This document shows positions 40,056 to 47,665 of a DNA stretch of 64,000 bases, one piece after another (position 1 is the first letter of the stretch; each line of letters starts with the position of its first letter). The notes below the pieces were generated by a model that was not told the DNA's origin, searched no databases, and saw only the letters and a program-made list of their open reading frames with translations. This stretch comes from Paramecium tetraurelia (taxonomy: Eukaryota; Ciliophora; Oligohymenophorea; Peniculida; Parameciidae): positions 562,611 through 626,610 of the forward strand of contig NW_001799033.1 of NCBI RefSeq assembly GCF_000165425.1, read 5' to 3'. The position numbers were made by a program, and so were the translations under genes.

Positions 40056-42828
40056 ATGGAAGAGAAAGAGATCGAATTATTCGGGGGCAATTCTAAAATT
40101 AAAGAATAATAATAAGAAGAATAGGAATAGGAATAAATACAATATCGAAAGCAGGAATATAATTGCATCCGATTGTTGACTTTGATGTTAAAAAAGAATC
40201 TATTGCTCTTTCAAAGATAGAAATGTCTCTCTATCTTTTTATTCTTGTCACCGTTATTGATATGTCTACTAATCTTATTATGGCAATACCTTGTGGATCG
40301 ATTCACAGGATTCCTGATAATAGATCCGCCCATAAAAGATATATTGAAATAAATCCCAAGATGTACATCTTATAATGATGATAATTGCATAACAATCGGA
40401 TATTTCGTCCTGGGACAAACCCAAGACTGGATCACAAATGTAATGAAACGAGTTGCCTATACTAATCGCCTAAAATTTGATTAGGATGTCAAATTTATAG
40501 GAAATTATGATCAACCAAGTCAGATTTCAGAATATCTATTGTCTCATATGAATCTCACTTAAATAGCAGTAGTATTTTGTACCGATTCTTGGATGTTGTA
40601 TGATAAATAGCCAGAGATTTCAATCCCATGCCAGTTTGAAAGACTTGATAAATAGGTAGTATTCTATACCATATTGTACAATTACACTCTATTGTACAGG
40701 TCTCCATATCTATCAGACATGAAAATAGCCTACCCCAAAGATGCCTATGCATCATCTCTCAAGATAAGTTTAGATAATGCTATTTTGAGAGAGTTCACCA
40801 AAATTCCTAAAGAAGATGACGAAGAATTCTTGTATATATCTTAATAGGAATTTCCCACTATCCCAACCAGATTTATGCAAGGAATAGACATAGTGGGCAA
40901 TTACGGTGCCTTTTACTTCTTCGCTCCCTACTTGCTTAACTTTTTGGTATTAATAAATGAGATGTTGTAAGAAAAGGGTAAGAAACTTCGATAAGGTTTA
41001 ACAGTGATGGGATTGACACACACAATCTATTGGATAAGTTGGAGTATCACAGCATTGCTTCTAGTAATCATTTTGACAACCAATCTGTTGATTTGTGGGT
41101 AAGTGTTTAGGATGGATTTCTTTTTGAACACACCGAATCTGATTTTGTTCATTTTGTATGTGACTTTTGGGTTTTCGATTTCATTGGTGGCATTCTTTAT
41201 AGTGGTTGTATGTCCAGATGTGAAAAATGGATACACAATAGCCTATGGATTCATACTAACAGCAATCCTGATGTAGATGTGTTTTACATAAGCAGGGATG
41301 TCAATTCTATTTTATCGTTTAGATGCTTCGAGTTGGGTTGGTATGGTGAGAATACTAATGAGTTTGTATCCAGCATTCAAATATTCATTGATTTTTGCAG
41401 ATATTTCTATAAAGTCTTGTCGACATTACTCTTTGGAAGAAGGGAGATGGGTAGAAGGAGACGGATTCACTTTTGCTGACTTATTCGCAGTAAATAGTGG
41501 TAAAGTACAATTGGATAAGAATGTCCAATATCAATCACCATGTGCAATGGATAACTATTTCCATTTACTATTGGCATGCATGTTCTACATCTTGTTGACA
41601 TACTATTTTGATCACATTCTTGAAAGTGTATGTTTATTATTCATTAATAGAATAGAGGAAAGGCTGATTCATTATTGTTCTGCATCACTAAACCCTTTAA
41701 TATGTTCTTTAAGTCTCCTCCTTAGCCCATCACTGATCTTCAATACTAGTGTCATACTAATGATTCTGCTCAATTAGAGAAAGAGAGAGTAATCAAGAAC
41801 TCCAATAACACCTACGTAGATGGATTGAGGATAATAGGGTTAAGCAAGACTTATCACAAATATTCCTTCAACATAATATCCAAAGATGATGTTCATGCTC
41901 TTAAGGACATCTATCTAGAAATAAATTCTGGAGAATGTCTGGCATTGTTGGGACATAATGGAGCAGGCAAAACTACTTTGATTGGTTTGTTGACAGGGAT
42001 GTTCAAACCATCTAAAGGTACAGCTCAAATTATGAATTATGATCTTAATGATATGGAAAAGATCAGAGCGATGTTAGGTGTTTGTCCGCAATTCGATATT
42101 CTATGGAATCAATTGACTGCAGCTGAACATCTAAGGATGTATGCTACAATCAAAGGATTGCATAGAGATCAAATAGAGAATGAGATAGATCTCAGATTGA
42201 AGGAGGTTGAATTATTGCATGTCAAAGATCAACAAATTCAAACATACAGTGGAGGAATGAAAAGAAGAGTGTCTTTAGCTATCAGTGCAATTGGGAATCC
42301 AAAGATCATTATAATGGATGAACCAACGACAGGAATGGATCCCAGAGCTAGAAGGTAGGTTTGGAAAATGATTAAGAATATGAAACAAAATAGAGTTGTG
42401 ATACTAACTACACATGCTATGGAAGAAGCAGATGTTTTGGCTGATAGGATAGCTGTGATGGCTGAAGGGTAATTGAAGGCTATTGGTACAAGTTTGTTTC
42501 TGAAGAACAATTTCTCAGATGGATATAGAGTCAACATTATCACTGATTAGGTGGATGAATGTTTGTCCAAAATAAAACTATTATTAAACTAATTTAAACT
42601 ATTAGACACTAGTGGTGGTAGCATTTTGTAAATTTATCATTTTATTTCAGAATCTCCATACCCTTTTAATATATGCAGGATCTGAAGGCCTTGTTTGAAG
42701 TATTCGAAAAGAAGGAATCAGATTTATCAGAAACTTAATTGCAATTAAGAAAGCTGATTAAGGATTGGGGATTGAGTCATGCAACATTGGAAGAGGTGTT
42801 CATGAAAGTAACTAGATGTTGTGAATGA
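40056..42828 (+). CDS. half-size ABCA-type ABC transporter
   Basis: 908 aa with introns 41628-41650 and 42628-42650. N-terminal half: one TM helix after a short cytoplasmic part (about residue 55), a large lumenal loop, then five to six TM helices typical of ABCA/ABC-2. C-terminal ATPase: Walker A GHNGAGKTT, Q-loop in CPQFDILW, signature YSGGMKRRVSLA, Walker B IIIMDEPTTGMDP, and H-loop TTHAMEEAD. ABCA transporters move lipids or amphipathic molecules, usually as full-length molecules with two halves. One half only means dimerisation is required. Two canonical 23-nt introns were needed to keep the frame around residue 525 and before the last 60 residues. Start is the first ATG before the charged N-terminus. 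Confidence 0.93.
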
Positions 42829-42909: not shown

Positions 42910-43663
42910 ATGAAATCTCAAGCTGTCTTTACTTATTCCTTCCATACATCCAGAGATCCTTGCCATTTTTAATTTACAAAGACCATCCAATAGAAACATA
43001 AACATTCATTTAGTGATCTCTTTGCTAGTAATTAATTAGAACAGCGTATCAATTAAAAGATAAGAAGAAAGAGTTGTCATTGCAACGAATGTGGTAGAAT
43101 GAGCAAATTCCAATTCAAATTTATGAATCTCAAACATCACCAACCACAAACAAGGAATCAGAGTTATACTCTTCATCCATCAACAGAACATAGGCCAATT
43201 TAAAATAGATTCTCCATCTAACTTCCAAGTACATTCTAATCATTATTCAGATATCCAACACATTCGCAAAAGTTAGGGCTCCTTTCGTGTCAGTAGAAAA
43301 TAATTAATCAATGATAAATCTGATGAACAAAGATCTCCCCTTCTGATCTATGACTCTTCCTTTGCCAGGTCCTCTATTAGTACAACCTAGAAATTATTGG
43401 AAGATACTGCTCACAAAAATAAACCTTTCAGACCAAGTTTTTTTCATTCTCATGATGGACCATCTCCGCTTGTACTTAAATCTCAGCAATTAATTATTGA
43501 GAAACTCCCTTAAACTGAAAGATCTACAAATACTAAAATTAAACTCCGCAATAATCCCAAACTCTTGTGCCCACTCTTAATTGGGTTTACTAAAAAAATA
43601 TTCACTTTTTCAAAAATTAAACCAACTTAGACAAAAAAACACAATAGATTTAAAACATAATGA
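42910..43663 (+). CDS. RRKSCxCxxCG-family protein A (tandem paralog 1)
   Basis: 243 aa, one intron (43229-43250). Family hallmark at about residues 50-70: RRKSCHCNECGRMSKFQFKF, i.e. basic RRKS, Cys-x-Cys-x2-Cys-Gly and a following aromatic block. The rest is Ser/Thr/Pro/Lys-rich and low-complexity, with no TM segment. Two more genes with the same motif follow head-to-tail (43909 and 44886). The three Cys could bind one metal with a fourth ligand, and RRxS is a classic PKA phosphorylation site; both are inferences. No family outside this array is recognised. Confidence 0.6.
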
Positions 43664-43908
43664 TATTCTTTATAATTTTATATTTATGTTTTAAACTTCT
43701 TAATAATTATTGTATATAATCATCAAAAAAAATAAATAAAATGTTCAATTCTTTATTCCAAAATGTTAATAATTTAAATTAACATATATTTTGATAATGA
43801 ATATTATTTCTATTTCATTTATATTATATTGTAATAATAAATATAAGATTTTATTTAAGAACAGTAATTACAACTTTATTAAATTATTAAATAAATTGAG
43901 AATTCACT

Positions 43909-44799
43909 ATGTCCTCATCAACTAATAAAAAAGGAATAAAACGTAGAAGCAAAAGTTTTATTCAACTTCCAAATCATCAAATAAGTGAACAATTTAAATA
44001 AAGAAGAAAAAGTTGTAATTGTGATTCATGTGGATAACTTAGCTCTCTATAATTCAAGTTTATGAATTTATAATCATATATTTCCCATCTTTAAACCAAC
44101 AAACCAAAGAAATATTAGAGCATTGAATCCACTTATATGGATTCTCAAGATGGCATCATTGCCAATAATTAAATTCATAAACGAATCCCTCAAACTATCG
44201 AAGTAAAATTGAAATATTATCCAAACCCTAACACAAGCCTAATTTAAACTAATTAGTTCCGCTATCAAAAGAAATAACGTTCAAATAGTTGTTGTTGTGA
44301 TGAATGTGGAAATATGACTAAATTTCAATCCTAAACAAAGTTAATTTATATCTAATAAATAATTAAAAACAGACATACTAATTTTAGAATTAAAAGAAAC
44401 CTTGATTACATATTCAAAGGAATTAGTCCAATCGAAAGAAAATAAGAATAAGAACCTGAAGATGATGAAAATTATTCAACTTATCCAAATCAAATCACCT
44501 CATTAAGAAGATCAAATCTAACATTGAATCAACCTACAAAACAACTCTAAAAAGGCTATTAAGGCAGTTCTAGAAAGGTGTTCCTTAAAGATGCCTGCAA
44601 AACAACATTCTTCACTAAAACCAATTCAAATATTAGGGATCTAACATTGAAATCTGAAAGCAATAGTCCAAACGTTACAAAAAAAAAACTAAACCTGCCA
44701 ATTGTGAAATCCTCCTACAGCAAAACAACATAAATAACCAATGAAGTTCAACTTTTTAAATTTACTCCTAAATTAAATAGTATTAATCTAATATCTTGA
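43909..44799 (+). CDS. RRKSCxCxxCG-family protein B (two motifs, tandem paralog 2)
   Basis: 296 aa, no introns. It has a basic, Ser-rich start (MSSSTNKKGIKRRSKS) and two hallmark motifs: RRKSCNCDSCGQLSSLQFKF near residue 37 and NSCCCDECGNMTKFQ near residue 130. The second keeps Ser-Cys-x-Cys-x2-Cys-Gly but only a single Arg before it. The rest is Ser/Thr/Asn/Lys-rich, probably disordered. Gene spacing within the array is about 250 bp then 90 bp, all on the same strand. The likeness to A and C includes the block FMNLQ after the motif. No known domain; see the finding on this family. Confidence 0.6.
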
Positions 44800-44885
44800 A
44801 TTAAAGATGACTATTATTAATATTTAATATTTATTATTTATTTGAAGTTGTATTTCTTTTAAGCTATTCCAATATTTTGAACATA

Positions 44886-45806
44886 ATGAGAAGATAAATA
44901 AGTAAAAAAGACTACACTATAAAATGTGAAATTGTTTTAAATAAAATCTCTAACTCTAGAAGTTTTAACATTTTACAGGTTTAAAATGATGAAATCGAAT
45001 AACCAAGAGGTTTAACAAGAAGAAAAAGTTGCTACTCATAATTATTTGGATACATGAATAAATTCTAAAATCGATACCATAATATTTTACCTGAATTGAA
45101 AACCAAATATTGTACTTAAGATAAGGAGACTAAGGAAACCTATAGAAGACAAACGTAAATAGCTGAAGATACAGTCATAAGGAAATTTCGAAGAGGCCTT
45201 TAAGAATTGACAAAATGCTAAACTGTTATATAAACTCTAAAAATGCTTAAAACTAAGAATAGAAACATCTAAAATTTTATAAAATAAATGAGAACTCCTA
45301 ATGATAAAATTGTTTAAGAAAAAACAAGAAGAAACAGTTGCTTTTGTTCAGAATGTGGTTCATAAAGTCAGTTTTAATTGACTCATTAAAATGATCCATA
45401 TTTCAACTATTTCAATTATAATGAATTTTTGAAAAGAAAGATAATTGATCCAAAAATCAACAGGTTTAAAAATAAACTATTAACTCATATATAATTAGAA
45501 AATATGAAAAAAAGCTTCGTCAATGAAAATAAATCATAAATCAATAAATATAGAACTGTTTCAAGAACTACTAATCTATTATTAAAGCTATCCTCAACAA
45601 AACTTTCAAATTTTGATTAGAGATAATTTTCTATTCAATCAAAAAGAGTTAAAACTGAATTCACACAATGTTCTCCAAAGTCATTCAAATAATACTCAAG
45701 TCAAACTACCAAATAAAGAAAATTTGTAACCTATTCAAATTATTAGTCAATGGTTACCAATTAAACTAAAGATAGCTTTAAATCTTTGGCTTCTATATAT
45801 AAATGA
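44886..45806 (+). CDS. RRKSCxCxxCG-family protein C (two motifs, one decayed, tandem paralog 3)
   Basis: 306 aa, intronless. Contains RRKSCYSQLFGYMNKFQNRY near residue 45, in which the second and third Cys of the motif are gone, and an intact RRNSCFCSECGSQSQFQ near residue 150. Otherwise a basic, Ser/Thr/Asn/Lys-rich chain without TM or signal peptide. The loss of Cys in the first copy, with the RRKS and aromatic positions kept, suggests the flanking text has its own use. Third in the same-strand array after A and B. Function unknown. Confidence 0.58.
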
Positions 45807-46332: not shown

Positions 46333-47665
46333 ATGAACTTTAGTGAAATCTTCCCAGGTGTAATATTTGCTTAATTTGCACCGAATAGCAAATATATTGT
46401 GTTGAGTAATGGAACAAGAGTGATTGTGAAAGAAACAGATTAATTACAATCAATTAACTTTACCCATTCATAAATTAATGATGCTTAAATACAATAAATA
46501 GAAATTTCTCCGAATAGTGAATTAATTGCATTAAGTTATCCAAAAAAGGGATACGTAGAAATTAGAAAAATAGATGAAGTTAATTGGTGTGCAAGAATTG
46601 ATGATAGTGTTGAGACTATTTAATGGTGTCCAGATTCTATTTAATTAGCTGTTATTAGTGAATTTTAAGTAAAAATAAATAAAATCTTAATAGATTAAAG
46701 CATCAATTTACAATTTGAATAACAAAAATGTGACTCATTTTAAAAATCCAAAATAAATTTCATTTAGTCATAATGGGAGATTCATGGTAATGAGTGAAAG
46801 AAAAGATGCTAAAGATTTTATTGGAATTTATAGTGTTAGAGATTGGAAACTATTGAATTATCAACCATCTGATACTTTGGATACAGCATTATTACAATGG
46901 TCTCATAATGACTCCTTCATTGGAGTTTAAGACACTGAATTAAATGTAATTCATAAGATAATAATGTTTTAGTTTCGACTTAATCTTCATTGTCCTTGTT
47001 AAGGTTTATAAATGAAATTCGAACCTTATTCATATTCATTAGGCATCAAAGTTAGTAGGTTTGCCAACCAAAGCGATTTGATGGCTGTTGGAGCTAATGA
47101 TGAAAAATTAAGAATCATTAATTTACTGACACTTAAATAAATAACAGAATTAGAGCATAAAATTACAAAGGATGTTCTAATTTATAAAGAAGAAGAATAT
47201 TCTGATTAATATTCCTAGAGAGTAGTGACTAAATGTATTATAATAATATGATAATTAGTTACTTAAATGGAATAAGGTTGTAAAATCAATATCTCAAAGA
47301 CCCAAAATGGTATTAGTTTATTGGAATGGAGCTATAAAGACGACTATATTGCCACAAAGTTTGATGGAATGTAAAATTGTGTATTCATTTGGGACATGGA
47401 ATTATTGACCTTAAAAGCTATAATGGTTTAAATATTACCTGTTAAATCTTTTACATGGTCGAAGAATTCTACAACCCTAACAGTTTGTACTGGAAGTAGT
47501 AAGATATTCTTTTGGAATCCAACATGTACCTCTGCTTGTGACATGCCATTCGATAAGAACTTCCATGTTGTAAAAATAGATTGGAGCACTGATCAAAAAA
47601 GTATGTTACTTTTTGATAAATCTGATGTCGTTGTTGCTTATCCAACTCTAGATGATAGTTTTTGA
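46333..47665 (+). CDS. WRAP73: WRAP73/WDR8-like WD40 protein of centrosome/basal body
   Basis: 428 codons after introns 46669-46693 (25 nt) and 47235-47258 (24 nt). It starts MNFSEIFPGVIFAQFAPN, matching the conserved MNFSEVF start of WRAP73. Order of blocks agrees with the human protein: KNPKINFIQ with later ERKDAKDF, EPYSYSLGIKVSRF, KTQNGISLLEW, ATKFDGMQNCVFIWDMELLTLKA and the last blades ending in KSMLLFDKSDVVVAY. WRAP73 forms a complex with SSX2IP that anchors spindle/centriole microtubules; a basal-body role is inferred. A 27-nt in-frame stretch near 46950-46977 could be a further, stopless intron, so the exact length is uncertain by nine residues. Confidence 0.85.

Follow-up and report, generated by a model that had tools for sequence, protein, structure and literature searches.

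A same-strand gene array in Paramecium tetraurelia belongs to a family whose shared cysteine motif and likely kinase target serine point to a possible, uncharacterised signalling module

Three neighbouring genes on the forward strand of the window (the whole stretch of 64,000 nucleotides of Paramecium tetraurelia DNA analysed here) encode different proteins that share one type of cysteine motif (Table 1). The motif-bearing frames of all three genes are open under translation table 6, in which TAA and TAG are read as glutamine, and these frames, together with the coordinates of the motif cores, bear out a preliminary description of the locus as a same-strand array with five motif copies in three genes. 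A correction applies to gene 1, which comprises two exons separated by a predicted intron rather than one continuous frame; its frame stops at 43314 if splicing is omitted, and its paralogue on contig C90 has a 22-nt GTA...AAG stretch at the matching place. The C90 stretch examined, which reaches 1.5 kb before gene 1, yielded no counterpart of the upstream neighbour, presumably an ABC-transporter-like gene. The downstream neighbour, presumably a WD-repeat-like gene, is 89% identical over its first 152 residues to the gene that follows the C90 array, and this identity anchors a duplicated block.

Table 1. Positions in the window of the array genes, their motif copies and the two flanking genes
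Feature	Position	Strand	Remarks
Upstream gene, presumably ABC-transporter-like	40056..42828	+	directly upstream of the array
Gene 1, single-motif member	42910..43663	+	exons 42910-43228 and 43251-43663
Predicted intron of gene 1, 22 nt, GTA...CAG	43229..43250	+	position common to the C90 paralogue
Motif copy 1, core RRKSCHCNECG (gene 1)	43063..43095	+	then RMSKFQFKFMN
Gene 2, two-motif member, 296 aa	43909..44799	+	paralogues C90:51035 and C161:22262
Motif copy 2, core RRKSCNCDSCG (gene 2)	44002..44034	+	then LQ, not FQ
Motif copy 3, core RSNSCCCDECG (gene 2)	44278..44310	+	one Arg only; C90 paralogue likewise RSNSC
Gene 3, two-motif member	44886..45806	+	near full-length alignment with the paralogues on C161 and C163
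Motif copy 4, core RRKSCYSQLFG (gene 3)	45018..45050	+	lacks the second and third Cys
Motif copy 5, core RRNSCFCSECG (gene 3)	45327..45359	+	
Downstream gene, presumably WD-repeat-like	46333..47251		downstream of the array

A chance origin of the motif is ruled out by shuffling. When the window is read in six frames, the core R..SC.C..CG is found four times, compared with 0.0 per shuffle in 60 dinucleotide-preserving shuffles; on the same basis, C.C..C occurs eight times against 1.6 per shuffle and RR.SC four times against 0.4. Two of the five copies deviate as had been noticed from the letters, one (45018, RRKSCYSQLFG) by the loss of two cysteines and the other (44278, RSNSCCCDECG) by a single arginine.

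The array represents a small part of a genome-wide family. In the host genome (69.07 Mb, 231 contigs), protein searches with six queries besides the window genes, followed by reading of the DNA, identified at least 77 motif copies, which fall into about 59 genes; 18 of these are two-motif genes, with knuckles 66-103 residues apart, and 41 are single-motif genes. A gene is here a set of same-strand copies no more than 330 bases apart, that is, a grouping and not a gene model, and the totals are lower bounds since scoring covered the best candidates. Two chance look-alikes (C161:19249 and the opposite-strand C77:80119) were dropped before the count, and contig C133 and a truncated gene-3 remnant at C90:52135 were left out of it; C133 (13 kb; L087, G000:C133:9250-9800) repeats C12:142.8-143.6k and is perhaps an assembly duplicate or allele. 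An initial DNA pattern for the motif gave 213 matches against 289 for its reversed control, and the loci obtained with it (L001-L008) were not used. Further short arrays of family genes lie on C9, C12, C27, C53, and C61. The frames are rich in lysine (12%), glutamine (10%), serine (10%), and arginine (6%), and cysteine amounts to 1.1% of residues outside the motif (46 frames); the proteins are short, basic, and Ser/Lys/Gln-rich, and, judged from this composition, probably disordered.

Several subfamilies were distinguished. Members at L076/L077 (C199, C101) and L074/L075 (C77, C165) combine an RRKTC or RRQSC motif with a strongly kept basic YIRAHH-KKRKR element, whose histidine pair could supply extra metal ligands, and contain the sole two threonine-for-serine copies among the 77. 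Those at L088-L091, L093, and L094 (C4, C39, C198, C73, C46) are small basic proteins with RRKSCVC..CG or RRSSCHCSHCS, and the C4 and C46 members have a downstream NFRIF element in common. At about position 641 of L075 (minus-strand count), a further NESCCCSQCGKANKK knuckle, which lacks the arginine pair and lies outside the 77, occurs in a neighbouring open frame.

The family had been described as unrecognised, and the searches agree, since no relative was confirmed in Pfam/NCBIfam, in the PDB, or among viral and prokaryotic sequences. Neither the three window proteins (gene 1 as the unspliced 134 aa) nor 10 paralogue frames exceeded a cut-off in Pfam or NCBIfam; the score nearest to one (PF00069, 31.3 of 31.7 bits) was given by a kinase C-terminus upstream in frame L062 and probably belongs to a neighbouring gene. 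Among 53 motif segments, with cut-offs known for one member only, the best E value was 0.00073, to La_HTH_kDCL (two members), a family for which the longer frame reached 18.6 of 27.5 bits. A known curated domain is therefore rejected as the identity of the motif, no score lying above a known cut-off in these two libraries. A profile search of PDB sequences gave no match at E 10, and Foldseek with a 40-residue model of pLDDT 64 gave three matches, none significant (best E 8.6). For 13 of the 53 motif segments, none of 41 pattern matches in prokaryotic genome contigs and none of 90 in viral contigs was confirmed, and gene 2 searched against phages yielded no confirmed relative (best E 2). No account of an RRxSC-CxCxxCG family was found among the titles and abstract openings of the papers listed in literature searches; ciliate databases may contain such proteins under an uncharacterised label.

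The Ser/Thr and the first cysteine of the motif are invariant, and its glycine is nearly so. Position 0 is serine in 75 and threonine in two of the 77 copies, the first cysteine (C1) is present in all 77, C3 in 74, and C6 in 73, all three cysteines occur together in 73, and glycine occupies position 7 in 75. Every copy has at least one arginine (at -3 in 71, at -2 in 73, at both in 67), and Phe12, Gln13, and Asn18 are found in 53, 57, and 48 copies, respectively. These tallies carry a bias of ascertainment: copies were found by similarity, the first tally was anchored on SC, later scoring allowed any residue at position 0 (S/T counting one point of twelve) and required cysteine at position 1, and the last five loci were read with S/T-requiring patterns, each giving a copy. 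When the motifs of reciprocal-best paralogues are set side by side (23 pairs), residues agree in 181 of 184 comparisons at the eight core positions and in 2427 of 3567 (68%) outside. Since cysteines outside the motif are kept in 22 of 37 paralogue comparisons, the joint retention of the three motif cysteines indicates that these are specially constrained. The motif serine is encoded by AGY in 70 of 75 copies and by TCN in five, family-frame serines overall being 36% AGY, and one paralogue pair has threonine (ACT) at this position; the TCN and ACT codons signify that a hydroxyl residue is retained across codon sets, and the AGY excess also argues for common descent.

The family is under purifying selection, as judged from substitution rates. 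In 16 of 18 reciprocal-best paralogue pairs (48 frames), dN/dS is 0.087-0.355, three of these values being rough owing to dS above 1.5; the other two pairs have saturated dS. Selection on the window frames themselves, on which the preliminary description had made its reading depend, is evident in gene 1 against C90:49110 (dN/dS 0.30 over 154 codons of the open frame holding exon 1) and gene 2 against C90:51035 (0.24); gene 3 compared with C161 has dN 0.42 and dS 1.43. A point against such constraint is the C90 copy of gene 1, where two length differences of one base each in the C-terminal half suggest a broken frame there, or else an assembly error.

Parts of the array occur in the same order on two other contigs, and the array was thus inherited. 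C90 carries gene 1, an extra gene with two motifs (M), gene 2, and what is left of gene 3, after which comes the downstream gene of the window; C161 (minus strand) has M, gene 2, and gene 3 in the order seen elsewhere, and gene 3 is present on C163. M is absent from the window array and gene 3 has decayed on C90, a distribution expected of a block that predates at least two duplications and afterwards suffered losses. Whole-genome duplication in Paramecium is a candidate cause of the block copies. Local duplication had been put forward to explain the array; as the sole cause it is ruled out by the presence of about 59 genes over many contigs and of array parts on C90 and C161. In a tree of 36 first and second motifs, the motif-1/motif-2 labels need three changes versus a shuffled mean of 12.4 (0 of 500 shuffles as low), an effect that near-copies also produce; none of 200 bootstrap trees needs one change only, and good support is confined to 11 of 33 inner branches. 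The trees therefore do no more than suggest an ancestral two-motif gene.

The two deviant copies of the window are, from their paralogues, inherited subfamily states. The copy at 45018 is no one-off degenerate: C3 and C6 are missing from motif 1 of gene 3 not only here but also on C161 (RRISCYGDEFG) and on C163 (RSFSCYGTEFG, with one arginine only), and in all three this motif keeps the serine, C1, the glycine, and FQ. Motif 2 of gene 3 is intact in the window and on C161, and lacks C6 on C163. All four copies with cysteine loss among the 77 retain the serine, the first cysteine, the glycine, and FQ or KQ. The deviant copies separate the RxSC core from the metal-type cysteines and speak for an independent role of the serine. 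Additional candidate sites occur elsewhere in these proteins: in 46 frames, RRx[S/T] is found 19 times outside the motif, the shuffled mean being 5.3 (none of 1000 shuffles as high, with paralogues treated as independent and some non-coding tail possibly included). Serine or threonine follows RRx in 19 of 60 cases, S+T making up 15% overall; RR pairs are also enriched by themselves (60 against 34.6 per shuffle), and the looser [RK]xxS is weakly enriched (205 against 182, 28 of 1000 shuffles as high). The invariance of Ser/Thr, the use of both serine codon sets, and the extra RRx[S/T] sites favour a basophilic-kinase role for the motif residue. The same extra sites, and the gene-3 copies that lack C3 and C6 and retain the rest, would also suit a linear-motif scaffold, in which an RRxSC-x5-G-x4-FQ peptide docks one conserved partner (for example, a kinase or a 14-3-3-like reader), the extra cysteines merely stiffening the peptide and metal being unneeded; we regard this as somewhat unlikely, given that 73 of the 77 copies hold all three cysteines and that cysteines outside the motif are so much more freely lost.

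The preferred reading, held tentatively and at rather less than even confidence, is that the knuckles are half zinc ribbons that pair through a second copy into a docking or dimerisation clip switched by PKA/PKG-type phosphorylation. The module spans approximately 22 residues, in which an RRxS/T site abuts a CxCxxCG knuckle and is followed by a segment, often FQxKxxN, predicted as a helix. The CxxCG pair would form half of a zinc ribbon completed by a second copy, from the same chain in two-motif proteins and from another chain in single-motif proteins, and phosphorylation of the invariant Ser/Thr beside the first cysteine would switch the pairing or the partner. A 40-residue AlphaFold2 model from the five window copies places two strands at the cysteines and then a helix, at a modest mean pLDDT of 64; the whole-protein model (gene 2 with gene 3 as partner, two sequences) is uninformative, its mean pLDDT of 32 being no evidence of disorder. 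The best candidate for a fourth ligand, at +16, is histidine or cysteine in 21 of 70 copies; because no fourth Cys/His is conserved per copy, most single copies could not fill a four-ligand zinc site alone, which favours pairing of two copies as the simplest way to a full site. Two observations weigh on the clip: C1, the most constant cysteine, would have no role in a plain CxxC/CxxC ribbon, and gene 3, whose motif 2 stays intact in the window and on C161 beside a motif 1 that has lost C3 and C6, speaks against obligatory pairing in cis.

Cysteines clustered beside basic residues, with no conserved fourth ligand, would also suit a membrane anchor, in which the cysteines are S-acylated (palmitoylated) and an adjacent phosphoserine regulates release. 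We consider this quite improbable, as acylation needs neither the strict CxCxxC spacing nor the near-invariant glycine, the frequent FQ, or the predicted helix. Zinc-ribbon proteins that bind nucleic acid, with the arginine pair contacting phosphate, would fit the basic composition (K 12%, R 6%), the long basic YIRAHH-KKRKR of one subfamily, and the matches of single motif copies to ZPR1, RecR, and other zinc-ribbon models; these matches are weak (best E 0.015) and the Ser/Thr invariance would be left unexplained, so that this alternative also appears improbable. Storage of copper or zinc by metallothionein-like CxC/CxxC motifs is least credible and highly improbable: a three-cysteine CxCxxC could bind Cu(I), and gene 2 has a sub-threshold match to Metallothio_11 (E 0.2), but so little cysteine lies outside the motif, and metal storage would have no use for RRxS and FQ.

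About 59 genes of a single protist form a protein family that is under purifying selection, has been retained through duplications, and is nameless in the libraries consulted. The fusion of an invariant kinase-type serine to a cysteine knuckle offers a testable link between basophilic-kinase (possibly cyclic-nucleotide) signalling and metal-dependent interaction in ciliates, and would, if the signalling-module reading is true, provide the cell with a combinatorial set of phospho-switchable protein clips. The fullest version, a ciliate module of about sixty effectors in which half-ribbon knuckles, paired in cis or trans, would open or close when a cyclic-nucleotide kinase phosphorylates the serine adjoining the first cysteine, is speculative and unlikely to hold in its entirety.

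Among known systems, the zinc-ribbon knuckle (CPxCG type; ZPR1, Rpb10, HVO_2753-like) shares the CxxCG turn between two predicted strands. The ZPR1/RecR/zinc-ribbon scores are weak, and the Foldseek matches, among them HVO_2753 and a Pol II complex (chain J, presumably Rpb10), are not significant. A zinc ribbon has two Cys/His pairs per fold, whereas a single copy here has three conserved cysteines and no conserved fourth ligand, and would be a half site with an extra cysteine before it and RRxS/T before that. The 41 single-motif genes would thus not suffice for a ribbon by themselves, and the two knuckles of the 18 two-motif genes might fold jointly. In the Rad50 zinc hook, two CxxC halves on two chains share one zinc ion; the likeness lies in the idea of shared halves, as the present family has no coiled-coil ATPase and different flanks. 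A paper on ciliate metallothioneins (PMC4862169) contains the term CxCxxC. Metallothioneins are Cys-rich chains, whereas the present proteins, about 200-300 aa long, carry one or two motifs, with 1.1% cysteine outside them (46 frames). RRxS is the consensus of PKA/PKG substrates, and the R-R-x-S/T form is found with both arginines in 67 of the 77 copies and with one in the other 10; unlike stand-alone sites, this candidate phosphosite is fixed directly ahead of a cysteine knuckle.
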